A stretch of 31,879 nt of DNA from a virus. Below the pieces are notes generated by a model. The model made no database searches. It was not told where the DNA came from and saw only the letters and a list, made by a program, of their open reading frames with translations. This document shows, in pieces, positions 8,165-30,532 of this stretch (position 1 is its first letter; every line of letters begins with the position of its first letter). The stretch spans positions 1 through 31,879 of the IMG/VR virus record IMGVR_UViG_3300031657_000561; one strand, written 5' to 3'. Position numbers and translations under genes: made by a program.

Positions 8165-10863
8165 TAGTAGACCACCTCATCAATGATAATTGGTTCACCA
8201 GCACGTAGGGATCCATGGTACAGAGCATCCCCATCACCAACGGCTCCAGTGGCCACAAAGACCAGCATATTGGGGAAATAGTAGACCAGCACATTGGCAT
8301 GTTTGGAGAGTTCCTGGTACTTGATATGAGAGAGCAGATCCGGGAGGCGATCGACCTGGTTGAATTCATAGAATTTGATGTCGCTTGCTGCCATTGCATC
8401 GGTGTTCGAGAGGTTGACTTCATACTGCCTGTATTTGTCAGTATCTGAGATGTTGGCCTTTGATCGATCGATCTCTCTAACATCGTCATACATCCCCTGG
8501 AGCCCGGTCTTGTGGATCAGAGCTAACAGCATATTGCCATCAGAAAGTATCTGATTCTGGCCTTCTCTTGTGGACAGATCGAGTGAGCCTGAGATCACAA
8601 ATGGAGTGATATCGGTTTCTTCTGGAGCTTCATTTTCGTAAATATTGTAAGGATAGATCTCAAGTAACGCAATATAGACTAAATCGTCAGTGACAAGATT
8701 AGCTCCATCAAATGCCCTGCCAGCTGCCGATCTCTGATAAACCCTGAGAGCTCCCGCTTTTCCCTCTACTCTCACGGATTCTGTGACCCACACTCCAGTC
8801 GTTGAGAATATTGCTAATTCACTTGCCTCTCCAGCTATCTCAAAGGCATTCACGTTGGTATTAGCAGCAGGAATATAATAAACGATATCAATTTGATAAT
8901 TTATTAAGTCCTCGATTACAGTGCTAGCCCTGTCAATTCTGTGACTATTTCCTGGGGTGGCATCTGCCCACGTTCTTAGCACGTTATCTTTTGAAGTCAC
9001 ACCATCTGAGATAGCATCAATGTTTCCTGTGACAGTTGCTCTTGTAGCAACGAAACCATCTGCATTAACTGTATAATCAGAATCATAAAGTGCAGCCGGA
9101 TCAAGCTCCGGATCCCCAGGAAGGAAACCAGCAACTCTTGAGACATTATCCTTGAAATAAAGCTTCCCATCTCTGACATACATCTCATCAGACTTCGTTG
9201 ATCCACCTGCGTTATCAGGACAGGTTGCTATGGTCCACGGTTCAAATGTTTCATATCCGAGATCTCTGATCTCAGCTTGAGTAGGTTCACCCTTCAATAC
9301 CATGAACTGAAGAACGCCAGCGCCGAGTCCGGTCCAGGTGTAAGTTTCACCTTTGGCGATCTCAACAGCAGCTTCAATTGTTGCTCCGGTTGCCCATGTA
9401 CCGCTTGAGTCAGAGCATAGAGTGAAGAACTGAGTTTCATAGATATTCGTGAACTCGACCTCATCAGCGTCGTCGTAAGCCCCACCAAGGTTTGCACTCT
9501 TTGCGCCAATCAAGAAAGGCTCATCTAGGGGAGCTTCGTAGTCGTTGGCTGTGGAGCCTGCGTTGAGTTGGATGTTTGAGATTGTGCTAAAGCCATCACC
9601 TACCCGCCAGGAAAAAGAGATAACAACATAGGCTGTACCCTCTGGAACTGATTGGTTTAATTTAGAAATACTCCCTGTTCCATTCAGGGCTGAACCAATT
9701 GACACTTCACTGATGAACTTATCATTAGCATCATAATGGAAAAAGGCTGACCGAAGTTGTGTAGGTTCAATAACATGATTCAGTGTTAATGAATAGCTGT
9801 CAATTCCTACAAGGCCATATTTTAGGCCGATTCCTTCTGCGGTTGGGGATGTCATCTCAAAGCTGATGCCAGTCTCTAAAATGTTATAGTCACTCAGGTC
9901 ATAAAATCCACCCACGCCTGACGTTCTTGGGTTGGTGATAGTCTCAGTACCGATATAGGCTAAATTTCCACCCCTGTTGTTCACAGAATGAACCTCAGTC
10001 ATCTCCATGCCTGAAACGTGAGAATCTCTGAGGATTGATAGAAATGCGTTTCGCTCTGATTCTATGGCTAACCATGTACCGATCAATGCCCAAGTATCAG
10101 TGATATCAACATCTCCACCTGCGCCAGATCCTGCGAGTGCCCAGGAGTAAAGTTCAGCAAGAGAATTGATTGCGACGACTTGATCTGCGGTGAGGGTTCC
10201 AAGGGCTGCGAGGTTGAATATCCCAGAATCAAAGTTTACAGCTGCTGCTCCACCAGTGAATACGGATCTGCATGCATTTGTAATTGAACCATCAAGTTCC
10301 TTTGCTGTGGCAAGCTCATACTTGACGCCTGTTGTCCCTGCTGTATATTTCATCCCAACAGAGAAAACGACCTGTGCAAAGATTGATGCACCCATTGGAT
10401 AGAAGTCACTCCCAACCATGGCATTTGACTTAACATTTGCCATACCGAGAAGCACGTCACCACCAATGCCACCACCCATAACACCAAAAGAAGTGTTGGC
10501 TGCAAAAGTATTGTCATCACCAGCCAGCAATAGAAGGTTCTTATCGAGAGGATTCCCGAGCAATCTCGCATAGAGCTTTGCGCCTTCTACTCCAACGATA
10601 TTTGCTAACCGGCCATAACTAGCCACAGAGCGCTCGATAGCTCCTGCCAGATGTTCTGCAGTCAGATTCTGAACCGTCAGATTGTCAGCAGTTAGATTGT
10701 CAATTGAAGAAGTCCCAATATTCAACACATCCAGTTTCTTGGCTGCATCGACTATCAGACCCTTTAGAGCTGTAACTGCACCAGCAATCACGCCTTTGAA
10801 GGACTGGCCAGCGTCGTCGACTTCTTGAGCTGTGGAGACTATGACTTTCTTAGGATCTGGCAT
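8164..10863 (-). CDS. Large adhesin- or fibre-like structural protein (899 aa)
   Basis: The second-largest gene in the window. The N-terminal 60 residues are helical and hydrophobic, followed by short NLTADNLTVQNLTAEHL-type repeats (about 57-73) that look like a beta-solenoid or trimeric stalk. The middle (about 320-450) resembles jelly-roll carbohydrate-binding modules, including a WRVGDGFSTISNIQLNAGS stretch typical of their C-terminal strands. The remainder is acidic and beta-rich. A receptor-binding or virion-surface role is likely. It is odd that the gene lies between the lysis cassette and the tail chaperones rather than after the tail tip. No protease, depolymerase or glycosidase motif was identified by eye. 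Confidence 0.55.
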   Translation of the reverse strand: MPDPKKVIVSTAQEVDDAGQSFKGVIAGAVTALKGLIVDAAKKLDVLNIGTSSIDNLTADNLTVQNLTAEHLAGAIERSVASYGRLANIVGVEGAKLYARLLGNPLDKNLLLLAGDDNTFAANTSFGVMGGGIGGDVLLGMANVKSNAMVGSDFYPMGASIFAQVVFSVGMKYTAGTTGVKYELATAKELDGSITNACRSVFTGGAAAVNFDSGIFNLAALGTLTADQVVAINSLAELYSWALAGSGAGGDVDITDTWALIGTWLAIESERNAFLSILRDSHVSGMEMTEVHSVNNRGGNLAYIGTETITNPRTSGVGGFYDLSDYNILETGISFEMTSPTAEGIGLKYGLVGIDSYSLTLNHVIEPTQLRSAFFHYDANDKFISEVSIGSALNGTGSISKLNQSVPEGTAYVVISFSWRVGDGFSTISNIQLNAGSTANDYEAPLDEPFLIGAKSANLGGAYDDADEVEFTNIYETQFFTLCSDSSGTWATGATIEAAVEIAKGETYTWTGLGAGVLQFMVLKGEPTQAEIRDLGYETFEPWTIATCPDNAGGSTKSDEMYVRDGKLYFKDNVSRVAGFLPGDPELDPAALYDSDYTVNADGFVATRATVTGNIDAISDGVTSKDNVLRTWADATPGNSHRIDRASTVIEDLINYQIDIVYYIPAANTNVNAFEIAGEASELAIFSTTGVWVTESVRVEGKAGALRVYQRSAAGRAFDGANLVTDDLVYIALLEIYPYNIYENEAPEETDITPFVISGSLDLSTREGQNQILSDGNMLLALIHKTGLQGMYDDVREIDRSKANISDTDKYRQYEVNLSNTDAMAASDIKFYEFNQVDRLPDLLSHIKYQELSKHANVLVYYFPNMLVFVATGAVGDGDALYHGSLRAGEPIIIDEVVY

Positions 10864-13851: not shown

Positions 13852-14319
13852 TTATTTTGTTTTTTTGTCCTGTGCTCTGAAGTAAGCTTCCAGCTCATCC
13901 TCACCTGACTCCGGATCAACCTTTGTGGGATCGTCTCCAGCACCAGAGAGTGAGGGGAGGTTCTTAACAAAGGCTTCAAACCCTTCAGGATCAGCCAGGG
14001 CCAACTTTTGGGCCGTCTCCATTGAAGCTGGAGGGATGATTTTCTTGTGCTTCTCGACAAGAGCAGCTGCTTTTGCCGTTGCAGCTTCTGAGGTCTGTGT
14101 GTTAACACGGCCCTCAAGCTTTTGTAGACGCTCTTTTAGAGCCACCATCTCAGGACTGTCGCCATCTTTTACTTCCAGCTTGGGATCTGGAACCACTGGT
14201 GGGTCAGTTTTGGGCTTGGCTGTAGCATCTGCTTTCATCTTGACGATAGCAGCTTCGATTTCTGTATCTGTTGCCTCAGCTTTTAGGCCCAGCATTGCGA
14301 TCAATTTTTTCTTATCCAT
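13852..14319 (-). CDS. Nested scaffold protein inside the protease gene
   Basis: An in-frame internal start at ATG 14319 (residue 195 of the protease) would give a 155-residue protein beginning MDKKKLIAMLGLKAE. AGGAG at 14329-14333 lies 9 bases upstream, a near-ideal Shine-Dalgarno placement in the middle of a gene. The product covers exactly the charged scaffold part. Independent expression of a scaffold from the 3' part of a protease gene is known for lambda C/Nu3 and Mu I/Z. The site and frame are visible; actual use is inferred. Confidence 0.65.
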   Translation of the reverse strand: MDKKKLIAMLGLKAEATDTEIEAAIVKMKADATAKPKTDPPVVPDPKLEVKDGDSPEMVALKERLQKLEGRVNTQTSEAATAKAAALVEKHKKIIPPASMETAQKLALADPEGFEAFVKNLPSLSGAGDDPTKVDPESGEDELEAYFRAQDKKTK

Positions 14320-14901
14320 TATTTCATTCTCCTGCTTTATCGTTGCCACGAGGTTTGTGTAATCGGCCAATCCCTCGTAAAGATTTGTTGCTTCATCATT
14401 ATCTACCGGGTCAATGATCTCATCGATAAACCCCTGCTCCAGGGCTTGGTCAGCAGTGAGCCAGGTTGTCTCATCCATCATCTTGAGGATATCTGGTTTG
14501 GGGATTTTGGTCTTGCGGTGATATATGCCGACCATGGTATCTGCTAGTTGATCCAGCAGCTTACCAGTACGCTTCATCTCTTCTGAATCACCGTATGCTT
14601 CACCCCTGGGATTGTGGATCATTAAATGGGCAACCTGAGACATGCGTACAGTCTCACCAGCCAATGCAATGACGCTGGCCATACTGGCTGCGTAACCAAT
14701 GATTCGGATCTCAACGTTTTCTTCCTTGAGTAGATTATAGATAGCAAGACCATCAAAAATACTTCCACCTGGTGAGTGGATATAAACGATGAACTCTTCA
14801 ATCCCCTCCGCCTTGTATGCAGTGATTACATCAGCAATATCCTGGGGGGATGTGCCGTATGCACCGATGTAGTTGAAGATGTATATCTTGCCTTTTTTCA
14901 T
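13852..14901 (-). CDS. Prohead protease-scaffold, ClpP (S14) type
   Basis: A 349-residue fusion of a protease with a scaffold tail. The N-terminal 185 residues are ClpP-like: IHSPGGSIFDGLAIYN (41-56), the active Ser in AASMAS (Ser73), the active His in HLMIHNP (His96) and an acidic candidate in MMDETTWLTADQALEQGFID (Asp143). The C-terminal part, from about residue 195, is charged, Ala/Lys/Glu-rich, partly coiled coil, and ends near EAYFRAQDKKTK, as scaffolds do. The protease trims the scaffold and capsid during prohead maturation. It is the first gene of the leftward late operon. Mu gpI works the same way but belongs to a different protease family, so this phage uses the S14 alternative. Confidence 0.87.
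   Translation of the reverse strand: MKKGKIYIFNYIGAYGTSPQDIADVITAYKAEGIEEFIVYIHSPGGSIFDGLAIYNLLKEENVEIRIIGYAASMASVIALAGETVRMSQVAHLMIHNPRGEAYGDSEEMKRTGKLLDQLADTMVGIYHRKTKIPKPDILKMMDETTWLTADQALEQGFIDEIIDPVDNDEATNLYEGLADYTNLVATIKQENEIMDKKKLIAMLGLKAEATDTEIEAAIVKMKADATAKPKTDPPVVPDPKLEVKDGDSPEMVALKERLQKLEGRVNTQTSEAATAKAAALVEKHKKIIPPASMETAQKLALADPEGFEAFVKNLPSLSGAGDDPTKVDPESGEDELEAYFRAQDKKTK
14329..14333 (-). promoter_or_regulatory. Internal ribosome-binding site for the nested scaffold
   Basis: Minus-strand AGGAG, 9 bases before ATG 14319, inside the protease reading frame. It is the main evidence for separate translation of the scaffold. Confidence 0.6.
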
Positions 14902-15000: not shown

Positions 15001-15465
15001 ATGAATACACAACATTCACCCGAAACCAGGCGTCGAGCTCGTGAACTTTACTTCCGAGGAGTAACCATCTCGGAGATCTCAAAGGTCCTTGGTGCAAGCA
15101 CCGCCACGATCGCTAGATGGCGGGACAAAGACAAATGGCCAGACCAGAAGGATCTCGTTGAAACCAGCCCTGAATCATTAACCAGAAAAATCAGACAGGC
15201 TCTCCTCGCTATCCTGGACAACACTGATTCTAGTGGCGGGATTTTAACGTCCAAAGACAGTGATCAGATAGCCAAGCTGGTTGCATCCATGAAAAAGATC
15301 GATCCAGGATCCAACTACATCTCAGTGGCCATGGATATCATGAAACGCTACCAGGATCATCTCATGAAACAAGGCATGATGACGGAGGAACTTCTTACAT
15401 CCACACAAGAGTTCCTGAGTGCAGAAATGGACCGTCACGAATTCGCCCGACAATTAGGGGGCTAG
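15001..15465 (+). CDS. terS: Terminase small subunit (DNA-binding)
   Basis: A 154-residue protein just before the large terminase. Residues about 6-43 form a helix-turn-helix of the terminase N-terminal type (ARELYFRGVTISEISKVLG, then TIARWRDKDKW). The rest is helical (about 60-150), as needed for the ring-forming oligomer that recognises phage DNA and feeds the motor. An in-frame TAG just upstream fixes the earliest start at ATG 15001, though no strong Shine-Dalgarno is visible there. It is the first gene of the rightward block. In Mu-like phages this protein directs headful packaging from the phage end. Confidence 0.75.
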   Translation: MNTQHSPETRRRARELYFRGVTISEISKVLGASTATIARWRDKDKWPDQKDLVETSPESLTRKIRQALLAILDNTDSSGGILTSKDSDQIAKLVASMKKIDPGSNYISVAMDIMKRYQDHLMKQGMMTEELLTSTQEFLSAEMDRHEFARQLGG

Positions 15466-15514
15466 CCTGAAAAAGATCACGACCAGAAAGCAGTTTGAGC
15501 TTGAACTGGAGCTA

Positions 15515-17005
15515 ATGCGACAAGCTCTCCAGGAAGAGGTCACGCCGTTACCCCTTGAGGGAAAAGCAGAGCGGATCGCAAGGGGAAAGCGAGATCCACT
15601 CTGGTTCATGCAAACATACCTGCCTCACTATTTCACGGCTCCCTTTGCACCATTCCACAAACGCTGGCTCAAGAAGTTGAACACCCGTGGTAAACATCTA
15701 TTTGGCTGGATGATGGGACGTGATTCTGGTAAAACTGTATTTGCAGGACTAGGCTACCCCATACACCAGGGACTATATGGATTCAGAAAATTTTATCTTC
15801 ACATTTCCAAAAACACTGACCTGGCGAGTGATAACCTGGAGTTCATCAGATTAGAGTTTAAGGAGAATCCCAGAATTCTCCAGGACTTTGGAGATCAAAT
15901 CGTCGCTGGAGCTGATACTTCAGGTGACTTCATGATAAAAGCCGGGATGAGATTTAAAGCTTTGGGGCTTCGCTCGACGCATCGTGGTTGGAGAAGTAGG
16001 CAATACCGGCCTGACCTGATTGGAGCTGATGACCTGGATGACGATGAGAGAGTTGAAAGCGAAAAACTCATCGAAAAGGATATTAAGCGCCTGCTGGGTG
16101 GCGCTTATTTCATGCTTGATAAGAATAATGGTACCATGTTTCTCACCGGGAACAAATTTTCCAACCGTGGGATCCTGGCGCGTATCCAGGAAGAACACCC
16201 CAAACTTGATTTTACCGATATCAAGGCTCTAATCAAGGATCGGAATGGCGTTGAGCATTCATTCTGGCCAGAGCTCTATTCAACTGAGTTTTTACAAAAA
16301 GAGCGCGAGACAATTGGATGGATCACCTTCAACCGGGAACGTCAGAATGAACCCGTTGAAAAGAGTGATTTCTTTCAGCCCGAATGGTTCAGAGGTGTGA
16401 GCAGGTCTGAGATTAAGGTTACAAAAACTATCCAATATCTGGATCCAGCATATGGAACAACCGACTCTGCTGATTTCAGATCTCACACTGTCCTGGGGTT
16501 AGATGAGATCTCTGGCAATGTGGTAGTCCTGGATTGTGTCAGCAACAGAGCACCCCTTGTTGATATGGTTGACGATAGCTATGCCCTCCATAAAGAATGG
16601 AATACAATAGTGTGTGGGATGGAAGATACGCTTCAGAAATTATTGTGGCGAGATTACAAGGATGGTGCAAAGCGTCATGGTTATGTACTGCCCAACCGGG
16701 GGATAGATAATAAGGCTAATAAAGATGTGAGGATCCAGGGTGTGTCCGGACCCATTCAGCTTGGGCAAATTCTATTCCTGGGACTGAAATGGGAGGAGGG
16801 TGCTACGCAACCAACTTTCGAGAATCCACACATGAAGATCCTGTATGAATCACTGGTCTATTATCCAAACTTCAAAAAGGATCCAGCTGACTCTCTAGCA
16901 GGGGGTTTCAAGCTTCTGGAAATAGTTGGTGATACTGAAGCTGCCTACCGATCGGTCAGAAAGCGCAAAATTGGAATTAAACGCCGTAAAGGGTCGAGGC
17001 GGTAG
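15515..17005 (+). CDS. terL: Terminase large subunit (ATPase/nuclease)
   Basis: The DNA-packaging motor. Walker A is GRDSGKT (about 68-74). Walker B, with its catalytic acids, is LIGADDLDDDE (168-178), and a TGNKF coupling motif lies at 211-215. The nuclease domain begins with YLDPAYGTTDSADF (308-321), where Asp310 is the expected first metal ligand. The 496-residue length fits. The listed ATG has a weak start context. A CTG at 15467, with AGGGGG 5 bases upstream and an open frame of 16 more codons, may be the true start; that would place it just after the small-subunit stop. The portal gene follows after a 76-base gap. Confidence 0.92.
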   Translation: MRQALQEEVTPLPLEGKAERIARGKRDPLWFMQTYLPHYFTAPFAPFHKRWLKKLNTRGKHLFGWMMGRDSGKTVFAGLGYPIHQGLYGFRKFYLHISKNTDLASDNLEFIRLEFKENPRILQDFGDQIVAGADTSGDFMIKAGMRFKALGLRSTHRGWRSRQYRPDLIGADDLDDDERVESEKLIEKDIKRLLGGAYFMLDKNNGTMFLTGNKFSNRGILARIQEEHPKLDFTDIKALIKDRNGVEHSFWPELYSTEFLQKERETIGWITFNRERQNEPVEKSDFFQPEWFRGVSRSEIKVTKTIQYLDPAYGTTDSADFRSHTVLGLDEISGNVVVLDCVSNRAPLVDMVDDSYALHKEWNTIVCGMEDTLQKLLWRDYKDGAKRHGYVLPNRGIDNKANKDVRIQGVSGPIQLGQILFLGLKWEEGATQPTFENPHMKILYESLVYYPNFKKDPADSLAGGFKLLEIVGDTEAAYRSVRKRKIGIKRRKGSRR

Positions 17006-17026
17006 CCACATACCCCTCGAACAAAG

Positions 17027-17064
17027 TTAAACGTTTTTAAACGGTGTTTCAGCATTTTTAAACG
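17027..17064 (+). repeat. Three phased TTAAACG repeats before the portal gene
   Basis: TTAAACG occurs at 17027-17033, 17037-17043 and 17058-17064, spaced 10 and 21 bases, that is one and two helical turns. The last two extend to TTTTTAAACG. They fill the only real gap inside the rightward block and may bind a regulator or form an internal promoter. Confidence 0.5.
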
Positions 17065-17081
17065 ATATGGAGTAGTGAGAG

Positions 17082-18305
17082 ATGGCTATTAAAGATTGGT
17101 TCAAGCGAGTATCAAAGGAAGTACGTCTATATCGAGTTCCCAGGAGCCGATATGCAAGGGGGACTGAGATCTCTGAAACAGAAGCCTCAACTGCCATCAC
17201 CTCCTGGCAGGAGGGAGACCTCGATGCCATGTTTGCAATCTTCAATAAAATGCGTACCGGGGATCCCCATATAAACGCTACTGCAGACACCAGCATTCTA
17301 TCTGTTGTCAATTCTGGGTTCACTTTTACAACTGATGATCCGGAGGCGGACGAAAAGCAGATCCAGTTTTTGAATCAGCACCTACGACCACGGATCCCAA
17401 TCTTTGCAGGTCAGCTAGCCCAGGCATTTCTCACTGGTGTTGTGATAGCAGATATCCAATGGAACCTGGATGGTCCCTGGATAATCGAAAAGCTGATTGA
17501 AGCACCACCAGCTGCATTCACCTGGAAGGAAAAGACTCAAGAGTTTGTCCGGGTGACTGAAGAAGGATTTCATACTAAAACGGAGGAGCTTGATCCATTA
17601 AAGACGCTTGTGTTCACTCCTCAGCTGATTGATGGTCTACCATACGGAATATTACAGTCATGTATCAACTGGTTCATGTTCAAAGATTTTGCCGGGAATA
17701 ACTGGGCCTCACACACTGAGATCCATGGAATGCCTTTCCGTCTGGGTAAGTACAAACCTGGAGCGACTCAACCTGAGATTGATCATCTCTGGGAAGCAGT
17801 TTACAGTATGGGGAATGATTCAGCTGCAGTAATCAGTGACAACTCCATGATTGAGCTCTTGGAAGACAAGTCTGGACGTAAGGGTGCTGATATATATAAG
17901 GATCTCATTGAGATTGCTGACATGCAGATATCCAAGGCTATCCTGGGTCAGACCTCCACCACTGAAACCATCGAGAAGGGCAACTATTACACTGCCAAGA
18001 ACCATGCCGATGTGCAGCGTGACCGGTGGATCTCAAAACTCAGACTGATCGAAGGCTGGATTAATACGAACATCATTACTCCCTTGATTCAGTTCAATCT
18101 GGGAATTGATGACTCTACCAAAATCCCACGTCTGGTGTACAACACTGAGACCATTCTGGATGCACTCAGGCTGGCACAGACAGCTAAAATATTTTATGAG
18201 ATGGGTTCGCCCATTCATCCCGAGGACAAGAAGCGAGCTGGACTCACTGTTGGAGACGATGAAGAACCCCTGGTGAAATCTGAAGGGTTCAAGGATCTGC
18301 TCTAA
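17082..18305 (+). CDS. Portal protein, DUF935 family (Mu gp29-like)
   Basis: A 407-residue protein forming the dodecameric channel through which DNA enters the capsid. Family features include the early RMRTGDPHINA-type segment (here KMRTGDPHINATADT, about 56-70), WNLDGPWIIEKL (126-137), an IHGMPFRLGKY stretch (214-224) and ILGQTSTTETIEKGNYYTA (about 287-305; the loop seen in DUF935 portals). GGAG precedes the start. It follows terminase and is followed by the gpG-like gene, as in Mu, except that the gpF gene is missing from between them and lies instead on the other strand at 20727-21932. Confidence 0.88.
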   Translation: MAIKDWFKRVSKEVRLYRVPRSRYARGTEISETEASTAITSWQEGDLDAMFAIFNKMRTGDPHINATADTSILSVVNSGFTFTTDDPEADEKQIQFLNQHLRPRIPIFAGQLAQAFLTGVVIADIQWNLDGPWIIEKLIEAPPAAFTWKEKTQEFVRVTEEGFHTKTEELDPLKTLVFTPQLIDGLPYGILQSCINWFMFKDFAGNNWASHTEIHGMPFRLGKYKPGATQPEIDHLWEAVYSMGNDSAAVISDNSMIELLEDKSGRKGADIYKDLIEIADMQISKAILGQTSTTETIEKGNYYTAKNHADVQRDRWISKLRLIEGWINTNIITPLIQFNLGIDDSTKIPRLVYNTETILDALRLAQTAKIFYEMGSPIHPEDKKRAGLTVGDDEEPLVKSEGFKDLL

Positions 18306-18754
18306 TGCTTGATGTTAATGTAACATACCCCAACCTGCAGAAGGTCATCAGGATCCTCCGGGATAGAAAGATCTTCTCCCGGCTAGCATTCCGGGCTCAG
18401 TATATCATTGAGAAAAGGATTGAGTCTGGTCGGACACTTCGAGGTGGAGCCAAGCAGTACAGCGATGCCTATAAGAAAAAGCGCCAGAGGGCAGGACTCC
18501 CTGTTGACCATGTCTACATGGAATACTCAGGGATGACCCTGGCTGCCATGACCCACAAAGCCAACCCTGGATCTGCTCAACTCTACTTCGCTCTCAAACG
18601 TGCTGAACGTATAGCCTACTACCACACATTTGCTGGAGCTGGCAAGCATAAGATCTTGCGTCCATTCTGGGGATTAACCAGGAAGGAAAAGACGGCCATC
18701 AATATCGCCTATGGCCAGTGGATAGCTCAGCGTCTAGCCTTCATGAATGAATAG
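18305..18754 (+). CDS. Virion morphogenesis protein (Mu gpG / tail-completion-like)
   Basis: A 149-residue basic protein overlapping the portal stop by one base (TAATG). The RTLRGGAKQYSDAYKKKRQR segment (about 43-62) and the later LRPFWGLTRKEKTAI (116-130) match the phage virion-morphogenesis family (gpG of Mu, tail-completion protein S of P2). In those phages the protein works at the head-tail junction. The gene continues the rightward block and is followed 9 bases later by the gp36-like gene. Confidence 0.75.
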   Translation: MLDVNVTYPNLQKVIRILRDRKIFSRLAFRAQYIIEKRIESGRTLRGGAKQYSDAYKKKRQRAGLPVDHVYMEYSGMTLAAMTHKANPGSAQLYFALKRAERIAYYHTFAGAGKHKILRPFWGLTRKEKTAINIAYGQWIAQRLAFMNE

Positions 18755-18763
18755 GAGTTTGAA

Positions 18764-19180
18764 ATGGGATACATAGATAAAGATGCGCTCATAGCAGCCT
18801 ATGGTGAGCAGGTTTTAAAACAGTTAACTGATGAGGATGCTCAGGCTGTGATTAAGGATACCGTCCTGGATCCAATCATTGCCCATGTGGATGATATCAT
18901 CAATGGTTTCTGTCAGGCTAAATACACAGTGCCGTTTGTCACGACTCCAGCCATAGTTAAGGACATTGCCCAGAAGCTAGTGTTTGCGGAGCTTCACGAT
19001 CGAGGAGAGGGTGAGATCCCTGACAAGGTTGCTGATGATGAAAAATACGTCCGGAGGCTGCTTGGCCAGATTAACACTGGGACATTGAAACTTGAGGCAC
19101 CAATCGGGGCTGCTGTGGACGTGAGCAGCATGCTCTCCACAAAGCCACGCCGATTCAATAAGCAAACCCTGGAGCTCTAG
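18764..19180 (+). CDS. DUF1320 protein (Mu gp36-like)
   Basis: A 138-residue protein whose start, MGYIDKDALIAAYGEQVLKQL, is characteristic of DUF1320. Next comes a helical pattern with IIAHVDDIINGFCQAKYTVP (about 44-63) and a C-terminal YVRRLLGQINTGTLKL. This family lies among head-tail connector genes in Mu-like phages and is structurally similar to head-completion adaptors. GGAG precedes the ATG. It is followed after one base by the gp37-like gene, so the two are translated together. Confidence 0.8.
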   Translation: MGYIDKDALIAAYGEQVLKQLTDEDAQAVIKDTVLDPIIAHVDDIINGFCQAKYTVPFVTTPAIVKDIAQKLVFAELHDRGEGEIPDKVADDEKYVRRLLGQINTGTLKLEAPIGAAVDVSSMLSTKPRRFNKQTLEL

Positions 19181-19181
19181 T

Positions 19182-19562
19182 ATGAATGATAAACTAACTA
19201 CCCAACAAAATGAGATTGTGGATCTCCTGAAAGACATCGAGGGAGTTAAAACCTGCCAGGGTTATGGTGGTGAGCTGGACGATGTTAAGAAGCTCACAAA
19301 ATCTCTACCAGCGATCTATGTCTGGTTTGATCTGGAGACCTACCAGAAGGAAGGCCAGACCAGCTATATCCGACGTCCGGAGTTTCATGCGATAGTGGTT
19401 ACCAAGAATGTCACCCAGGAGGCCAAACGTCGAGCAACGGGTCTGGATCTGATAGATCTTATCCTAGACAAGATTGAGGGGGTGGCATACGAGCTCAAGG
19501 CCACTGAACCCATAGAGAATTCATCCTCTTATTTTATTGCAGCCGTAAAGTTTATCTGGTAA
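19182..19562 (+). CDS. DUF1834-like protein (Mu gp37-like)
   Basis: A 126-residue protein in the position of Mu gp37, directly after the gp36-like gene. Features include an early helical region, the LPAIYVWFDLETYQ strand (about 45-58), a FHAIVVTKN strand (68-76), and a helix with LDLIDLILDKIEG (about 88-100). This alternation is the alpha/beta fold of tail-terminator or connector proteins. The gene ends the core part of the rightward block; a 148-base gap separates it from the protease insert. Confidence 0.7.
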   Translation: MNDKLTTQQNEIVDLLKDIEGVKTCQGYGGELDDVKKLTKSLPAIYVWFDLETYQKEGQTSYIRRPEFHAIVVTKNVTQEAKRRATGLDLIDLILDKIEGVAYELKATEPIENSSSYFIAAVKFIW

Positions 19563-19710
19563 CTTATTCCCATATACTACAGATGGTGCCATATTTAACA
19601 GGGAACACTACTGGTTGATGTGCGTACTAGAAGAAAAATGATGATTGGCACGTTTTTAGTAATATATTTGATGGAATAACCAAAGTGATAATGGTGAGGA
19701 GGCGATGGTT

Positions 19711-19947
19711 ATGCTTGAAAAGGACTATAAATACTACGAGAAGAATCGTACCGTGTTCGTAGAAAAATATTCTGGTAAGGTGATCGTAATTAAGGATCAA
19801 AAAGTAATCGGTATATATGAGAATAAACCCGAAGCTTTATCTGCCACAATAAAAGATCATGAAATTGGAACATTCCTGATTCAGCAAGTTGTACCGGTTG
19901 AGCAGGACGAAGTACAGATGTTCTATTCAAACGCTGTATTCGTTTAA
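19711..19947 (+). CDS. DUF5678-like small protein
   Basis: A 78-residue protein when started at ATG 19711, which has GAGGAGG 8 bases upstream; an ATG at 19705 lies only 2 bases from that site and is less likely. The sequence YEKNRTVFVEKYSGKVIVIKDQKVIGIYENKPEAL shows the DUF5678 pattern of short strands around a GKxVxIxDxxVIGxY core (here written to the pattern). It is followed by EIGTFLIQQV. This small domain is often encoded immediately before a retropepsin-like protease in bacteria, and that is the case here. The function is unknown; substrate, regulator or partner of the protease are options. Confidence 0.7.
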   Translation: MLEKDYKYYEKNRTVFVEKYSGKVIVIKDQKVIGIYENKPEALSATIKDHEIGTFLIQQVVPVEQDEVQMFYSNAVFV

Positions 19948-19950
19948 TCA

Positions 19951-20469
19951 ATGGCGAAATACAAGCAGCCATTCTATCACGCATTTAGGATTGAATACAG
20001 TGGGGTTGCACGAGACCTGAGATCTCAGGCTGGCATACTTCTCCCTAGCGCTACTCATCCAGATTTTAGCAAAAAAGCAAAGATCGATTTTATTGGTCTG
20101 TGGGATACAGGCGCGACAGGAACAGTTATCTCTAAGAGTGTTGTAAATAAAGTTGGTCTTACAGCCACCGGGCAAAAGGAAGTCAGAGGAGTAACTGGCG
20201 CAGCGACTCGAGATGTCTACATGGTTGATATAGTTTTACCCAATAATCTCCTTCTAGCGAATGTTGAAGTCGTGGATGGTGACATACCATGCGATGTTCT
20301 TATCGGAATGAACATTATTTCTCTGGGTGATTTTTTAATTACAAATTTTAGCCAGAAAACCACATTTTCTTTCTGCATGCCACCGCACAATAATCGTCTT
20401 GATCTTCTAGATAAGAGTGATGCTGTGAATAAAATCAGTAAATCAAAACCAGCCAATAAGATTAAATAA
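19951..20469 (+). CDS. Retropepsin-like aspartic protease
   Basis: A 172-residue protein with the aspartic protease signature GLWDTGATGTVIS (about 49-61, catalytic Asp52) and the matching second element DVLIGMNIISLGDFLI (about 114-129), as in single-domain retropepsins that work as dimers. The start lies 3 bases after the stop of the DUF5678-like gene, with no strong Shine-Dalgarno, so translation is probably coupled. The C-terminus is basic and Asn/Lys-rich. The pair sits in a rightward position between head genes and the convergent gpF operon, with lower GC than its neighbours, and looks like an inserted cargo. A role in virion maturation is possible but not implied by known Mu biology. Confidence 0.8.
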   Translation: MAKYKQPFYHAFRIEYSGVARDLRSQAGILLPSATHPDFSKKAKIDFIGLWDTGATGTVISKSVVNKVGLTATGQKEVRGVTGAATRDVYMVDIVLPNNLLLANVEVVDGDIPCDVLIGMNIISLGDFLITNFSQKTTFSFCMPPHNNRLDLLDKSDAVNKISKSKPANKIK

Positions 20470-20492
20470 AAAAACAGGTTCTCTGGGTTTTC
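20468..20492. terminator. Candidate bidirectional terminator
   Basis: An AT-rich imperfect hairpin between convergent genes. AAAAACAG pairs with CTGGGTTTT with one bulged G around a GTTCT loop, with A- and T-runs at its two sides. Positioned between stops at 20469 (+) and 20497 (-), it could end both transcripts. The stem is weak. Confidence 0.35.
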
Positions 20493-20496
20493 ATTT

Positions 20497-20751
20497 TCAA
20501 TCCAATTCTGGATAGTAGTCTCGCCACACCTTCCATTGGGGGAAGTACTTCTCATCACTACAGGCCGGATCTTCCTCACACCACTTGATAATCGTCAGCC
20601 AGTCATCCTTGCAATCATCCCGTAGTTCCTCATGGGAAATCCAGACTAAATTCAATTCATATAGAATGATCTCAGCTCGATAGGGCTGATCATGGTCAGT
20701 CCCCATGAGTGTGATTCGACTTTGCTTTATAAGATCGCGTTCTCTAGCCAT
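20497..20751 (-). CDS. Small acidic hypothetical protein (84 aa)
   Basis: An 84-residue acidic protein at the end of the early/gpF operon. Its start lies 25 bases inside the 3' end of the gpF gene, so the two are co-translated. The Trp- and Asp-rich C-terminus (WKVWRDYYPELD) and two Cys (about residues 47 and 63) suggest a small folded protein. No family recognised. By position it could act in head assembly, or it could be a gene caught at the edge of the inverted block. Confidence 0.55.
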   Translation of the reverse strand: MARERDLIKQSRITLMGTDHDQPYRAEIILYELNLVWISHEELRDDCKDDWLTIIKWCEEDPACSDEKYFPQWKVWRDYYPELD

Positions 20752-21932
20752 ACAGCATATTCCTTCGATTTCAGATCTTCCAGATAACTATCATAGTTTT
20801 CCACAGATCGGTAGTGGCGCATTTTATTTAAGTCATCCAGGACTGCAATAGATTTTGTTTCATGGTGGAAGAAGCGTAGCTGGGCTTCACCGAAGTAATC
20901 CTGCCAGATCACCTCATCAGCCTGGGTCATGGTCCAGTTGGCATCTTTGATAAAGTCAACTTGATATTTGTGATCAGATCCATAGTCCCGGTAGTCTTGA
21001 TTGAGATCCTTCCTGGAATAAGCATTTACCTGGAAGCGTCCCCGGTTCACCCAGTCCTGAATCTCCTGGGGATCTGTATTCTTAAAATAGTCTTTATAGT
21101 CCTGTGAAACGCCCTTTAAAGCAGGTTTAATCTCTGTTTTTGGAAACAATACTTTCATCCCTTTTCCAGTAGCTGTCCCGGACAAGTCCAGTTCAGTTTT
21201 CTCACCGGGATCCTCAACACCATCCCACTCCAGATCCACCGCTCTCCAGCGATGAATACAGCGATAACCACCTCGATTGATGAAGACGGGCTCCAGGTTG
21301 CCATTTCGCATCAAATCGATCTCTGGCCGGGTGTAGGGCCGTCCATGGGAGAGACACACCAGACAGAAGGGACGTGTATTCTGACCACGCTGGCCAGCAT
21401 ACTCAAAATGTGATAATCCAGCCTGGTCAGCCTTCTCAAAATACAATGCTGAGGAAAAACCCATGAGAGCAGAATGCCTCACGGTTTCCATGTGATCGGC
21501 TCTGATATCATTTATCTCACTCAAGGCTTGACGGATGACATCATCGCCACTATCTGCCTCTGCGATTACAGCAGCTTCAAAGTCTGAGATGTGCTTTCTA
21601 CCTAGTTCACTGTATCCTTCAATTTGTGATTGCTGGAGAGCTCTGAGCCTGGCAATTGATTCAGCATCGTTGGGTGTGGACCAGAGGTCTTCTGAGAGAT
21701 CAACCAGGGCTTTTTGATGTGTGATGGCATCCTGCCAGTAGTTCTCATATCCTGCATCCTTCAGGATCTTCTTAAACTCCCATTCAGCGGGATCAATACC
21801 CTCGCCCAGGAGGCCATCAATAAGTAGGTTTATGTTGGATTTTACCTGGTCAGCACCACCAGTTTTAATCATCACCAGAAGCTCGTTGTCAAGCTCCTGA
21901 TCAATTTTTTTTGTCTCTTTTCTAGTTGGCAT
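20727..21932 (-). CDS. Minor head protein, phage Mu F-like
   Basis: A 401-residue protein of the Mu gpF / SPP1 gp7 family. The N-terminal two thirds are helical. The diagnostic C-terminal module lies at about 178-230: YAGQRGQNTRPFC, then CLSHGRPYTRPEID, then RGGYRCIHRW. Cys190, Cys193, His196, Cys225 and His227 could bind a metal. Family members sit inside the head beside the portal and influence packaging or ejection. In Mu the gene lies between portal and gpG. Here it is on the opposite strand from the portal and continues from the early operon, downstream of the GemA-like gene. It overlaps the start of its upstream neighbour by 11 bases. Confidence 0.85.
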   Translation of the reverse strand: MPTRKETKKIDQELDNELLVMIKTGGADQVKSNINLLIDGLLGEGIDPAEWEFKKILKDAGYENYWQDAITHQKALVDLSEDLWSTPNDAESIARLRALQQSQIEGYSELGRKHISDFEAAVIAEADSGDDVIRQALSEINDIRADHMETVRHSALMGFSSALYFEKADQAGLSHFEYAGQRGQNTRPFCLVCLSHGRPYTRPEIDLMRNGNLEPVFINRGGYRCIHRWRAVDLEWDGVEDPGEKTELDLSGTATGKGMKVLFPKTEIKPALKGVSQDYKDYFKNTDPQEIQDWVNRGRFQVNAYSRKDLNQDYRDYGSDHKYQVDFIKDANWTMTQADEVIWQDYFGEAQLRFFHHETKSIAVLDDLNKMRHYRSVENYDSYLEDLKSKEYAVWLENAIL

Positions 21933-23151: not shown

Positions 23152-24063
23152 CTAATTTGTGTAGACCATGTAACGGCCCACGTCCTTTAAAAATGGGATT
23201 GTGATTTCTTGTTTCTCTACCGAGGCAGTTCTAATAGCCAACTTCAGTAGCTTTGACATCTTTCTATAGCTGCCACCCCAGGGATCCAGGTTGACGATAC
23301 CCCAGAGGTAGTTGTGGATCTTCTTATCGATCACCTTGTAACTCCTGGCGATCAGTTCAATATCCTCAAATTTTGGGGGCGTTAGAGTCTGCACCACTCC
23401 GAGACGACTAGATATCTGGGCAAAGAATTCAGCTTCCTTACCAGCCATCATTCTCTGCATCCTGGGTTGTCCGAAATAGACGGTTCCAATCCCAGATTGG
23501 TCATGGAGTGAGCGCACAATTTCCAGACTATCGCTTGATAGGAATTGAGCCTCATCGAGGATCAACATTCGATCACTGCCCTGCATAACTTTTGCAATCA
23601 ACTGGAACTGTCGATATCCAGTTAGATGTGTGGCCATCCCGAGGTGCTGAGCAATACTCACAATGATAGCCGTCCTGGTGAACCCCTTGAAGGCAGTCAG
23701 CAGGATCACATCGGGATGATTTTTTAAGTATTCAACTGCACTCACGGATTTACCAAGCCCAGGTACACCGTAGACAGCGCCCATATCCTGGTGAGTGTGG
23801 CAGTAGTTCAATACATCAGTGATGGCTCTGGCTTGAGAAGTTTCAACAAAGGTTTCATCCACCCGGTAGGTTTGGCGCGTGAATTCACGGGATAGGAAGC
23901 TCTGCATTCGGAGTTCAAGCTTCTCAACATCGCCTGAATATTTCTCATTGATCCACAGACTTAATGTGGCAGCCGAAGTACCCACTGATCGGGCCACTTC
24001 AGCTTGTGATTTGTCCGAATGCTCCATGTATTCATTGAATAACTCGCGGACAGTTCTAGGCAT
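23152..24063 (-). CDS. B: Transposition target-DNA activator ATPase, MuB-like
   Basis: A 303-residue AAA+ ATPase. An N-terminal helix-turn-helix (about 18-45: KSQAEVARSVGTSAATLSLW) is followed by the ATPase core with Walker A GVPGLGKS (99-106), Walker B MLILDEA (166-172) and an arginine-containing region around QISSRLG. MuB-type proteins bind and coat target DNA, choose the insertion site and stimulate the transposase. The gene overlaps the transposase stop by one base, the usual A-B pair. The length is close to that of MuB (312). Confidence 0.88.
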   Translation of the reverse strand: MPRTVRELFNEYMEHSDKSQAEVARSVGTSAATLSLWINEKYSGDVEKLELRMQSFLSREFTRQTYRVDETFVETSQARAITDVLNYCHTHQDMGAVYGVPGLGKSVSAVEYLKNHPDVILLTAFKGFTRTAIIVSIAQHLGMATHLTGYRQFQLIAKVMQGSDRMLILDEAQFLSSDSLEIVRSLHDQSGIGTVYFGQPRMQRMMAGKEAEFFAQISSRLGVVQTLTPPKFEDIELIARSYKVIDKKIHNYLWGIVNLDPWGGSYRKMSKLLKLAIRTASVEKQEITIPFLKDVGRYMVYTN

Positions 24064-25649
24064 TAGTTCACTCCTTGTGATTGATTATCAAATGACATTT
24101 CTGATAGGGGTACATCTGCGACCAGCCTGGTTGCGTTCCGGTAGTCCTCTCTAGCACCCTCACGTCTAATTTTCTTTCTACGACCCACGGTTGCGAATTC
24201 CTCCGATGTGGCTTCAAAGGGGTGGTTTTTACCCAGTATGGGAGCACCGCATAAGAAGAGATCCTTCGAGTCATAGATGTAAATAATATTGAGTTCATTG
24301 CGCTCGTTTACATCGGCTGGATCAAAGCGAATGATGACCCGCTGGCCTTCCATCTTTTTAACCAGGAGAAGATCATGGAAATAGAGGTTTTTGCGGTAGG
24401 TAACACCGTTGCCACGAACCTTGTAGGTCTTGCCTGCAACCCGCATCATGAGCATAGCGAGATCTCTCTTATCCACCATCTTATGAAAGGTCTCCAACAG
24501 CTCATAATTGAAACCCATATCGAAAACAATATTGGAGGTCATTTTTGTTTTCTGAAGCTGATGATTCAAACCAGTATGTTCATGTTTATTGTAGCTCTCA
24601 AAGACCTCATTAACGAAGCCGTCCACCTCATTCCAATCCATCAAGCGAGATAGATCAAGTTTCTTAGCCTGACCCTGGGTTTTGATCTGTGAGCTCATGT
24701 ACTCTGGCCTGTCCTTGATATCCGCTCCGATATAGCCGTATTCGATCGTTCTGCAGCGATTGTGGATGAAGTTGTGAGCAGGTTCGATATGCTTTGCTTT
24801 TGCATTATAAGGAATTGCAAACACGGGCTCGATATGGAGTGATGTGAAGATTCCCCTGATCATGATCTCATCCAGCATCTGCTCTTTTTTACTGGCTCTT
24901 TTTCCTTCGGTATTTGCACCATGCAGGGAGATAGCTGTATAGTCTTTGCCATTGTCCATGTAGGCTTTTTCAGGGGTGCCATACTTGTTGACCACTCGTA
25001 ATAGGGATAGAGAAATTGTGTCCTGGTTAGGATTTGTTGAAACAACCCAACCAAGAGCCTTTCGACTGTTTCCATCCATCCACCAGGTGACCCAGGGTCG
25101 TACAGGTTTTCCATTCTTCAAAACCTGTATGTTCAGCATCACGTGGTCACTCACTGCAGCGTCCATGGGTTTGATCAATCCCCAGTCCCGACTGTGGTGA
25201 GGATTTGTGTTTTTAAAGGCCGCCTCCCCCTCTCGATACAGGATCTTGGTGCTCTCTGGAATGGACTCATATTCCCTGCGAAAAGTGGCATAACTGACAG
25301 GCTGATCTCCCAGAGACATACAGAACTCCTGGTACTCCTCACGGTAGATGGTCATAATCTTGGGTTTGTGTTGATTGAGAGTGGATTTATAGAGGAACAT
25401 CTTGTGGTCTTGAGGCAGGATCTTTTTACCACCACGACGATTGGCAGTTCTGTCGGCTAGCCCTGCGATCCCGAACTTCTCAAAATCCTTGGTCCACCTC
25501 GCAAGTGTTTGCCTGGAGACACCGACTCTCCCTTGAGCATCCTTAGCTGAAAAACCACCTTTTATTAAGCTCTGGTATTGGCTCAAAATGTCAGCACGTT
25601 CAGCTGCAACCATGCGTTGCCGTCCATCGAGATCTGCGCTTGAAATCAT
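24063..25649 (-). CDS. A: DDE transposase, MuA-like
   Basis: A 528-residue transposase. The N-terminal region has a helix-turn-helix (about 33-60, with KDAQGRVGVSRQTLARWTKDF). The catalytic core shows Asp168 in VSDHVMLN, Asp232 in AYMDNGKDY and Glu289 in KHIEPAHNF; the 57-residue distance between the last two matches MuA (336 and 392). A C-terminal domain of the Mu-transposase type follows (about 390-470). It is shorter than MuA (663), mainly at the N-terminus and C-terminus, as in many Mu relatives. It cuts and joins the phage ends for replicative transposition. The preceding gene overlaps by 4 bases. Confidence 0.92.
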   Translation of the reverse strand: MISSADLDGRQRMVAAERADILSQYQSLIKGGFSAKDAQGRVGVSRQTLARWTKDFEKFGIAGLADRTANRRGGKKILPQDHKMFLYKSTLNQHKPKIMTIYREEYQEFCMSLGDQPVSYATFRREYESIPESTKILYREGEAAFKNTNPHHSRDWGLIKPMDAAVSDHVMLNIQVLKNGKPVRPWVTWWMDGNSRKALGWVVSTNPNQDTISLSLLRVVNKYGTPEKAYMDNGKDYTAISLHGANTEGKRASKKEQMLDEIMIRGIFTSLHIEPVFAIPYNAKAKHIEPAHNFIHNRCRTIEYGYIGADIKDRPEYMSSQIKTQGQAKKLDLSRLMDWNEVDGFVNEVFESYNKHEHTGLNHQLQKTKMTSNIVFDMGFNYELLETFHKMVDKRDLAMLMMRVAGKTYKVRGNGVTYRKNLYFHDLLLVKKMEGQRVIIRFDPADVNERNELNIIYIYDSKDLFLCGAPILGKNHPFEATSEEFATVGRRKKIRREGAREDYRNATRLVADVPLSEMSFDNQSQGVN

Positions 25650-28020: not shown

Positions 28021-28022
28021 AA

Positions 28023-28157
28023 CTAGTCCTTCAAAATTTGGTTGGTTTTTTTAATGGTCATGCCCTTGCGAGGCTGGTAAATTGGAGGTGCAAGTCCCGG
28101 TCGCGTGGCAGCTAAACCGGGAGCTTGCTTATCCAGAGGAGGATTCTTTTGAATCAT
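28023..28157 (-). CDS. Very small proline-rich ORF (44 aa)
   Basis: A short reading frame beginning 3 bases after the stop of the 81-aa gene and ending close to the start of the CII-like gene. It begins MIQKNPPLDKQAPGLAATR, contains a second PGLA, and ends KKTNQILKD. The tight spacing supports translation, but the start site is weak (TTAGGCT before ATG). A strong hairpin (28090-28128) lies inside, so this gap may act as RNA rather than protein. Confidence 0.45.
   Translation of the reverse strand: MIQKNPPLDKQAPGLAATRPGLAPPIYQPRKGMTIKKTNQILKD
28090..28128 (-). repeat. Long imperfect hairpin in the early leader region
   Basis: GCAAG (28090-28094) plus CCCGGT (28096-28101) pair with ACCGGG (28116-28121) plus CTTGC (28124-28128): 11 base pairs with a small internal bulge and a 14-base loop. 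It is inside the 44-aa frame. The PGLA repeat of that peptide could by itself produce part of the symmetry. Confidence 0.5.
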
Positions 28158-28160
28158 AGC

Positions 28161-28406
28161 CTAAAGACGACCGCGAGTAGCATTTTGAATCAGATCACCG
28201 TACTCTTTAATACCCGATTTCAAACCAGGGGTGAATTCAACTATGTTGTATGATGTGATAGCCTGTTTAACATCGTCAATAACAAAGAGGGCGTCTGATA
28301 CTGACATGCCTTCCAACTGTTGTGCTACCATCAGTGACAGAAGGCTTAATTCCGCGATTGACGGGTTCTTGAGGTTCTTGATTTTCAGTGGACACTTGGT
28401 TGGCAT
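28161..28406 (-). CDS. Hypothetical early protein (81 aa)
   Basis: An 81-residue protein, second of the early operon, directly after the Ner-like gene. It has a basic start (MPTKCPLKIKNLKN), a hydrophobic helical region (ELSLLSLMVAQQLEGMSVSDALFVIDD, shown as LSLLSLMVAQQL) and a C-terminal GIKEYGDLI. It is too polar overall for a membrane protein. A start at ATG 28406 has a good context (AGGAGAGC, 7 bases upstream). No family recognised; small early proteins here often modulate host functions or transposition. Confidence 0.55.
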   Translation of the reverse strand: MPTKCPLKIKNLKNPSIAELSLLSLMVAQQLEGMSVSDALFVIDDVKQAITSYNIVEFTPGLKSGIKEYGDLIQNATRGRL

Positions 28407-28415
28407 GATGCTCTC

Positions 28416-28628
28416 CTATACCTGTACTGGTAAATTTTCCAGTTCCCTGAGTACCCTGCGACTGTTGGCTCGTCGATTGACTACCTGGGAAACCGATTGT
28501 GATTTGATACCCATTCCTCGGGCGATCTCCGTGGCCGTGACCCCATTCCTGATGAGCAGGATCTTCATTTGCTCACGGTCGTATTCAGTATCACCGGTGA
28601 TGAGCGGTGATTCAATTTTTGATGGCAC
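28416..28628 (-). CDS. Ner-like regulator, helix-turn-helix
   Basis: A 70-residue DNA-binding protein, first gene of the early operon. The start is set by GGGAGG (28635-28640) 6 bases before GTG 28628; a TTG at 28634 directly abuts that site and is unlikely. Residues about 20-60 form a classical helix-turn-helix: ILLIRNGVTATEIARGMGIK with the recognition helix SQSVSQVVNRRAN, and then RRVLRELENLPVQ. In Mu, Ner turns down the repressor and early promoters. Its position opposite the repressor gene fits that role. Confidence 0.7.
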   Translation of the reverse strand: MPSKIESPLITGDTEYDREQMKILLIRNGVTATEIARGMGIKSQSVSQVVNRRANSRRVLRELENLPVQV

Positions 28629-28667
28629 TAACAACCTCCCAATAGCTTAGGTTTTTGAATGAATTTC

Positions 28668-28694
28668 TTGATACGGGGTGAAGACGATTAAAAT
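28668..28694 (+). promoter_or_regulatory. Candidate repressor promoter
   Basis: TTGATA (28668-28673) and TAAAAT (28689-28694) on the plus strand, 15 bases apart, toward the repressor gene. Spacing is a little short, so it may need activation or be weak. Confidence 0.35.
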
Positions 28695-28715
28695 TTTCAG
28701 GCTTCATATGCAGTT

Positions 28716-28743
28716 AATATATCCACAGAGCGTGGACTATCAA
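28716..28743 (-). promoter_or_regulatory. Early promoter (PE-like)
   Basis: On the minus strand TTGATA (28738-28743) and TATATT (28716-28721), 16 bases apart, each one mismatch from consensus. It directs leftward transcription into the Ner-like gene and early operon. The TCCAC/GTGGA operator lies between the two boxes, so a bound repressor would block polymerase. Confidence 0.65.
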
Positions 28744-28757
28744 ACAATTAAGTCCAC
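28722..28757. promoter_or_regulatory. Operator with three phased TCCAC half-sites
   Basis: TCCAC (28722-28726), GTGGA (28732-28736) and TCCAC (28753-28757) lie 10 and 21 bases apart, so all face one side of the helix. They form the inverted repeats TCCAC-N5-GTGGA and GTGGACT-N12-AGTCCAC; the outer two also form a direct repeat TCCACAG. They overlap the early promoter and reach the repressor start, giving a plausible combined repression and autoregulation site. Confidence 0.6.
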
Positions 28758-28760
28758 AGG

Positions 28761-29120
28761 ATGAATACTTTTTTAGATATACTTGAACGCCTTAAGGAGC
28801 TTGAGGACTTTAGGTTCGATGCTCAGGTTTGCGAATTGCTTGGATCAACTAAAACCCAGCTGAACAATTGGAAAACGAGAAACACGATCCCTTATGAAAA
28901 ACTTTTTACTTACTGTGAATCCAGGGAAGTTTCAATGAATTGGCTATTGTCAGGAGAGGGGCCAGTACATCTGATGGATAAGGAGATGGAATCGCTCAGG
29001 GATGAAAATCAATCTCTCAAGGATGAGGTAAAAAAAATTGATGAGATTCTGGAACAGGATTCAGAACGCTGTAGCCGACGCAATAGCAGCGATCCTCTTC
29101 CGGGTATAGAAGGAGCTTAA
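28761..29120 (+). CDS. Phage repressor, CI helix-turn-helix type
   Basis: A 119-residue protein. Residues about 17-67 match the phage CI HTH domain: FDAQVCELLGSTKTQLNNWK, the recognition region RNTIPYEKLFTYCESREVSM, and the ending NWLLSGEGP, which is nearly diagnostic. A short coiled coil follows (about 75-100). There is no S24 peptidase domain, so RecA-triggered self-cleavage is unlikely. The start codon is directly preceded by AGG with no proper spacing, which predicts weak translation and may keep repressor levels low. It faces the early operon across the operators. A c-type repressor of a Mu-like phage is the best reading. Confidence 0.75.
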   Translation: MNTFLDILERLKELEDFRFDAQVCELLGSTKTQLNNWKTRNTIPYEKLFTYCESREVSMNWLLSGEGPVHLMDKEMESLRDENQSLKDEVKKIDEILEQDSERCSRRNSSDPLPGIEGA

Positions 29121-29254
29121 TAGGTATCGCCACCTGATTGGGTTTTTAGGGTGGAGTTGATTGATTTATACTTGGATCTGTACATAATGTTCGATTGTGA
29201 AAGGTACCAGCCCTCACAATACTATACTCAAACCAATTGAAGAGGTATGTATTC

Positions 29255-29716: not shown

Positions 29717-29955
29717 TTTAGCAGCTATATAAACCGGCTTTAAATCCATGTTTGATACATGATTTGTATCATGATAGTCCATTTTACCTGCACGAAACCA
29801 TCATCATTTAACATGTTTGCCCATTTAAACTGCAAAACGCCTAAACGCGAAAGCAGTGCGCACGTCTCGGATAAACAATCACTTACGGGTGCAAGCCCAA
29901 ATTATCAATCTGTCCATTTAATCTGACCCCCTATAATAATACTAAGGGGCAAATT
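29717..29955. other. Non-coding region, candidate phage end and promoter
   Basis: No gene is seen here. A perfect dyad TGATACA-N5-TGTATCA lies at 29753-29771. CACGAAAC (29791-29798) and TAAACGCGAAAGC (29842-29854) recall the CGAAA-containing sites bound by MuA at Mu ends, but the resemblance is short. Near the right side a perfect TATAAT (29932-29937) without a clear -35 box lies 18 bases before the next gene. The area may contain the phage-host junction. Confidence 0.35.
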
Positions 29956-30468: not shown

Positions 30469-30532
30469 GAGACATATAACAAAGGTAGAGCTGACATACA
30501 CTAGGGAGAGTATCGACGAGCATCTGGCTATT

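Follow-up and report, generated by a model that had tools for sequence, protein, structure and literature searches.

Here, we show by family and profile searches, comparison with related loci, maximum-likelihood phylogeny and AF2 structure prediction that a small DUF5678-like gene and a gene for a retropepsin-like aspartic protease form a two-gene unit that is shared between phages and bacterial chromosomes. The pair is conserved, richer in AT than its surroundings and patchily distributed; it is found as a clean insertion in a bacterial genome, it lies in a slot whose content is exchanged between related phages, phage and chromosomal copies mix in its tree, and in cyanobacteria both domains are fused in one chain. 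The two proteins are predicted to form a complex, and the explanation that we find best supported, to which as a whole we give about an even chance of being right, is that they constitute a mobile regulated-protease module that would act inside the host cell, probably in phage–host or phage–phage conflict.

Results

The window, by which we mean the whole stretch of DNA analysed (IMG/VR record IMGVR_UViG_3300031657_000561, 31,879 bp), is a Mu-like transposable phage according to family searches. These place the transposase (MuA; 24063–25649), a MuB-type ATPase (23152–24063), a ClpP-type head protease (13852–14901) and the major head protein and tape measure genes on the minus strand, and the small and large terminase, Mu-type portal, neck protein, gp36-like and gp37-like genes on the plus strand (15001–19562). 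The last gene of this terminase–portal–connector operon, a Mu gp37-like or neck gene (19182–19562, plus strand; PF08873, E = 4.6e-6; phrog_490, E = 3.6e-9), forms the left boundary of the slot that holds the pair. Its right boundary, taken from the open reading frame list and the sequence, is the last gene of the convergent early operon that contains MuB and MuA (20497–20751, minus strand). As the last plus-strand unit, the pair ends with a stop codon 27 nt from that of the minus-strand early operon. It occupies a module boundary, where the terminase–portal–connector operon meets the early operon, outside the head operon. The sequence-only reading of this DNA, which had the pair inserted among head genes, was right that it is next to connector genes, the last of which it follows, but the site lies between modules and not within the head operon.

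The lower GC content that this reading had ascribed to the pair is extreme for the phage: 38.8%, against 46.3 ± 1.7% for 930-bp windows over positions 1–28000, 0.2% of which are as low. The possible terminator that it had proposed was not recovered, as a consensus scan found no terminator-like site at the pair and the predicted folding of the 3′ region is not more stable than that of shuffled sequences (z = −0.76). Likewise, a consensus scan limited to promoters of the sigma-70-like type, with other types outside its reach, found none upstream of the pair.

A strong ribosome site was also part of the sequence-only reading, and a Shine–Dalgarno sequence, GAGGAGG, can indeed be read at 19696–19702 on the plus strand. 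It ends 2 nt before an ATG at 19705 and 8 nt before a second ATG at 19711. Most relatives start with M-L-(E/D/K)-, which makes ATG 19711, with its fitting ribosome site, the likelier start, and the DUF5678-like gene then spans 19711–19947 (plus strand) and encodes 78 aa (80 aa from ATG 19705). Against the DUF5678 profile (PF18929) the window protein alone scores 14.9 bits, below the gathering cut-off of 23.2 (E = 0.024). The gene shares its position and its order of motifs with 44 aligned partners, and 32 of these 44, at the same gene position, match PF18929 at E ≤ 0.1 (best E = 1.5e-8). Judged by sequence, the small gene is DUF5678-like, and we do not file it as a member of PF18929, a family for which we know of neither a function nor a solved fold.

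The C-terminal tail of the DUF5678-like protein (19909–19944, plus strand) follows a family consensus, YTQTFHSRVxF, of which the window carries a partly diverged version, EVQMFYSNAVFV. This tail is conserved across the family, yet it is disordered (low pLDDT) in the models. Modelled alone with AF2, the protein is predicted with moderate confidence to have the order helix–helix–strand–strand–helix–strand (pLDDT 78.9, pTM 0.60), and a fold search of this model against the PDB gave no significant match. DUF5678 is also seen without a protease, as weak matches above the Pfam cut-off, in L207 (1060–2112), where the start of the protein resembles a response-regulator receiver, and in a small protein of L205 (1270–1629).

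The protease gene begins after a gap of 3 nt (19951–20469, plus strand) and encodes 172 aa. Its profile scores are above the gathering cut-offs, with 30.9 bits against 24.3 for PF13650 (E = 4e-7) and 30.4 against 28.2 for PF13975 (E = 6e-7). Both sequence elements named in the sequence-only reading are present: the catalytic motif D52-T-G-A-T, preceded by W51 (20104–20118, plus strand), and the hydrophobic–hydrophobic–Gly element I118-G-M-N-I-I-S-L-G-D127 (20302–20331, plus strand), in which L117-I-G119 supplies the hydrophobic–hydrophobic–Gly of the clan AA motif. Across 105 pairs, WDTGA (W51–A55) is 100% conserved; the second element is conserved as well, G119 and M120 at 100% and I123, G126 and D127 at 99%. 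The best PDB match of the AF2 model is Rickettsia APRc (5c9f; E = 2e-7), followed by the retroviral proteases of RSV and FIV and by Ddi1. Motif, profile and predicted fold together identify the window protein as a clan AA retropepsin-like protease, for which a PHROGs search returned no match. At the C-terminal end, 43 of the 105 proteases have a SEC-C-like zinc motif and many or most of the others a strongly basic tail; the tail of the window protease is short and lysine-rich only. The SEC-C-like or basic tails of the relatives suggest an enzyme that is steered to an intracellular partner.

Modelling indicates that the DUF5678-like protein and the retropepsin probably pack together as a complex. 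For this we used a read-through chain, in which the window genes are in frame and the intervening stop is read as a residue, and an alignment that comprised 28 such chains, that of the window among them, and many single ones; the AF2 input alignments were free of rows from the phage collection. The resulting model has a pLDDT of 90.7 and a pTM of 0.85, with the DUF5678 part at about 96 compared to 78.9 alone, but the tether in such a chain may exaggerate the packing. The distances between partners correlate with those between proteases (r = 0.54, with 0 of 1000 permutations as high), a correlation that may reflect linked inheritance only.

Independent support for this packing comes from cyanobacteria, where at least 11 single chains that match DUF5678 continue into a retropepsin-like domain with L-V-D-S-G-A (L180, L181, L184, L185, L189–L191 and L193–L196; about 205–230 aa, with a DSGA active site). 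The retropepsin-like domain of these chains is recognised mainly by its motif, as two chains only match the protease profile at E < 0.01. In L204, DUF5678 ends one gene and a DTGA protease begins 3 nt later. The cyanobacterial fusions are easier to reconcile with a stable enzyme of two parts than with a toxin and an antitoxin that can separate. Conservation of the partner's tail despite its predicted disorder raises the possibility of a peptide that inserts into the cleft of the protease.

Is the pair an integral part of this phage? Single-sequence and alignment scans of IMG/VR gave three relatives of the window phage, L005, L007 and L008, whereas gp37 as a query gave none. The contig of L005 ends inside gp37 and is uninformative on the slot. 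The early operon is common to L007, L008 and the window, with MuB 76% (L007) and 68% (L008) identical to that of the window. Compared with each other, L007 and L008 are closely similar on one side of the junction (MuF-like gene 91.5%, a 203-aa gene 99%, neighbouring early genes 98–100%) and on the other (gp37 86%, gp36 89%, TerL 98%, portal 98%). Between these flanks, L007 holds two small genes (7413–7781 and 7828–8211) and a 71-aa ORF, at 39.8% GC, and L008 a single 285-aa gene on the other strand (8432–9289), at 37.1% GC. No relative of the protease was found anywhere in the two records, both of which are fragments and were searched without a positive control.

The near-identical flanks of L007 and L008, with unrelated AT-rich genes between them, indicate that the junction is a cargo slot and that the pair is very likely the cargo of the window phage. 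Of the features that mark phage morons, the junction shows different cargo at the same place and a deviant base composition, and lacks a detected promoter and terminator of its own. The sequence-only reading had held that the pair would be cargo unrelated to assembly if relatives lacked it and virions were processed normally all the same; as to relatives, the nearest in IMG/VR, L007 and L008, do lack it. Inspected by eye, one L007 slot gene resembles an ASCH domain, beside a gene of 127 aa, and the 285-aa gene of L008 has an apparent membrane segment and a coiled coil. Outside the slot, L007 (2704–12722) and L008 (3967–13813) form a sharp mosaic in which MuA is 64% and MuB 70% identical and the post-MuB, terminase and portal genes are 98–100% identical, indicating that exchange between these phages extends beyond junction cargo to early replication modules.

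Beyond these relatives, a profile built from four sequences detected the protease in 59 viral contigs, and a profile of 45 detected 465 bacterial loci, the best 80 of which were kept. By record title, the carriers include Omnitrophota, Patescibacteria, Spirochaetota, Bacteroidota, Bacillota, Chloroflexota, Pseudomonadota, Nitrospirota, Fibrobacterota and others. Among loci with a callable protease ORF, this ORF is immediately preceded by a DUF5678-like one in 48 of 54 viral and 64 of 73 chromosomal cases (the latter from the best 80 of 465), with a median gap of 2 nt. Altogether, 112 of these 127 loci have the two genes in this order, which settles the question of chance; it also agrees with the sequence-only reading, which had described the pair as a compact unit and such pairs as known in bacterial chromosomes.

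No constant neighbour beyond the pair was found across loci. In phages, the genes around the pair include integrases, repressors, anti-repressors, tape measure and head-morphogenesis genes; in chromosomes they are mostly housekeeping genes, and many chromosomal copies have no phage genes around them (e.g. L071 and L114). An integrase is present in 23 of 47 viral records, and the Mu-like phages are additional temperate carriers. In the Mu-portal phages L036, L039 and L043 and in Leptospira phage LE1, the pair is likewise found at, or close to, the end of a portal or connector module; in the Mu-portal phage L057 it lies elsewhere, away from the portal module. Its orientation relative to late genes varies among phages, being convergent in L036, L039 and LE1. 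A search for phages with the pair in the same place, as had been recommended from the sequence alone, thus does find similar placements, but the copies of L036, L039, L043 and LE1, like that of L057, fall in other branches of the protease tree, so that the similar placements are independent gains.

In 92% of 98 loci the GC content of the pair is lower than that of the DNA around it; the median difference is 6.4 points, and the median position of the pair is at the 5th percentile of random segments from the same locus. Its distribution is patchy: of 59 genomes sampled from the genus Tenacibaculum, 1 has the full-family protease, as does 1 of 193 sampled from Omnitrophota, each time the anchor genome, with other Omnitrophota copies among L069–L074 outside the sample. 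In Tenacibaculum adriaticum, about 939 bp with just the pair replace about 5 bp of three relatives, a clean insertion. The insertion site (L114, 5613–6553; compared with L177, L178 and L179) is a non-coding element that is repeated in Tenacibaculum genomes. For the source of this insertion we considered a group II intron and an integron cassette and found support for neither, as Rfam gave nothing and no flanking inverted or direct repeats were found.

In the maximum-likelihood tree of the protease, in which bootstrap values were still short of convergence, phage copies are interspersed with chromosomal ones, with 23 label changes, at least 10 of them forced by well-supported branches. The window protease nests in an Omnitrophota clade with 11 genome copies (support 100/85). 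Its sister is L068 (97/97), which adjoins apparent phage tail genes as judged by eye, and another Omnitrophota copy, L072, lies near a terminase. Although the window protease nests among Omnitrophota copies, no close relative of its MuB was found among 334 Omnitrophota genomes. Copies that are 21–50% identical keep the catalytic and partner motifs.

Discussion

What might such a pair do for its carriers? We suggest that it is a self-contained, horizontally mobile accessory module, or moron, placed in a cargo slot between the late connector genes and the early operon, and that it would encode a two-part proteolytic enzyme composed of a cytosolic retropepsin-like protease and a DUF5678 partner. 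The partner would bind the protease and set its activity or substrate, by inhibition, by substrate presentation, or by both. The enzyme would target a cellular protein or one from a competing phage, and this action may give the lysogen or the phage an advantage, in conflict or through lysogenic conversion, with virion proteins left unprocessed. More tentatively, and with less confidence than we place in the module itself, the pair could represent a protease-based conflict family that is mobile across many phyla, in which DUF5678 holds and aims the retropepsin and which would serve superinfection exclusion, abortive defence or a toxin–inhibitor function. PADLOC gave few scattered defence matches among 116 chromosomal neighbours, with no enrichment evident, and it linked the protease to PDC-M08B only weakly (E about 1e-4).

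Some properties of the pair could also be read as those of a toxin–antitoxin system, with the protease as toxin and DUF5678 as an antitoxin that is lost on stress or infection, so that the prophage would be stabilised or the infection aborted. The unit is small and compact, the partner gene comes first, the genes overlap or are separated by a few nt, the distribution is patchy and mobile, and the conserved, disordered C-terminal tail of the partner would fit an inhibitory peptide that binds the protease. However, the cyanobacterial fusions join both domains, an uncommon arrangement for a toxin with a labile antitoxin, and the toxin–antitoxin models of NCBIfam and PADLOC do not match the pair; we regard this reading as unlikely. 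We give slightly less weight still to host takeover, in which the protease would cleave a host protein during lytic growth and DUF5678 would be a substrate adaptor. The pair is co-oriented with the late connector operon and directly 3′ of it, so late read-through is possible, and the SEC-C or basic tails of relatives could steer the protease to the ribosome or the translocase. Yet many carriers are temperate, many chromosomal copies (L071, L114) stand apart from phage genes, and the orientation relative to late genes differs among phages, the copies of L036, L039 and LE1 being convergent. Against our preferred reading, some copies do have terminase or portal genes at a distance of a few kb, which leaves a late-gene role of the pair some probability.

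Capsid maturation, one of the roles that the sequence-only reading had raised, fares worst. The pair would then supply a prohead or virion maturation protease additional to the ClpP-type head protease, a notion to which its connector-gene neighbours lend some appeal, as do other Mu-portal phages and LE1, in which the pair is near or at the end of the portal or connector module. These similarly placed copies are independent gains, though; L007 and L008 share the early operon and have other cargo in the slot and no protease; the pair occurs in chromosomes and the protease is not known as a head protein in PHROGs; and the phage already has a ClpP-type head protease. We consider such a role scarcely credible. 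That the genes are decayed or neutral passengers with no function would agree with their accessory, patchy distribution, but it is nearly as improbable, since catalytic and partner motifs are kept among copies only 21–50% identical, both frames are open in most copies and the pair is rarely split. The mobile, intracellular protease module is the reading that we retain.

How does this module compare to known systems? With other clan AA retropepsins (retroviral proteases, Ddi1 and Rickettsia APRc), the window protease shares the single-domain arrangement of D-T-G-A and hydrophobic–hydrophobic–Gly, and its predicted fold is nearest to APRc 5c9f, at about 17% sequence identity. It differs from them in its DUF5678-like partner gene, in the SEC-C or basic tails of its relatives and in that it does not appear to be secreted. 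RimB (PMC11957791) and the secreted osmotic-stress enzymes of Pseudomonas (PMC12239564) are described as retropepsin-like bacterial enzymes too. The cyanobacterial fusions resemble the pair in that a DUF5678 domain is followed by a retropepsin-like domain, but they are one chain, have DSGA instead of DTGA and GREVVFD for GMNIISLGD, and lack the TQTFHSRV tail. Leptospira LE1-type phages (KF114879, KF114880 and KX656785) have the same two-gene order, and their protease is 33% identical to that of the window over 98%; these phages are unrelated to the window phage, however, their pair is convergent with a portal-like gene, and their protease gene is not annotated at full length. Like the morons of lambdoid and Mu phages, the window pair consists of AT-rich genes between conserved modules that are swapped among relatives, and it differs from them in that an own promoter and terminator were not detected.

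Neither the protease fold nor the notion of phage cargo is new. For the mobile DUF5678–retropepsin module, or for DUF5678, we found no paper in the open literature, and the module has no PHROG; PHROGs does not recognise HIV-type (retropepsin) proteases as a phage family. A mobile and probably complexed unit gives DUF5678 a testable role as a retropepsin partner, and the pair offers a protease that may serve phage–host conflict. The cyanobacterial fusions and Leptospira phage LE1 make the module testable outside a metagenomic phage.

Finally, some other parts of the window may be recorded here. In its tail region, two long minus-strand ORFs (8164–10863, 899 aa, and 2293–3963, 556 aa) have no PHROG match at E 0.01. 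Within the early minus-strand operon, a 401-aa gene (20727–21932) resembles the MuF minor-head type by motif, without profile support, and shares 28% identity with a gene of 235 aa in L007. The right end (28021–31879) is AT-rich (39.5% GC) and carries several plus-strand ORFs, the last of which runs off the record; L008 has relatives of two of them, at 83% identity for 29237–29716 and 56% for 28761–29120.
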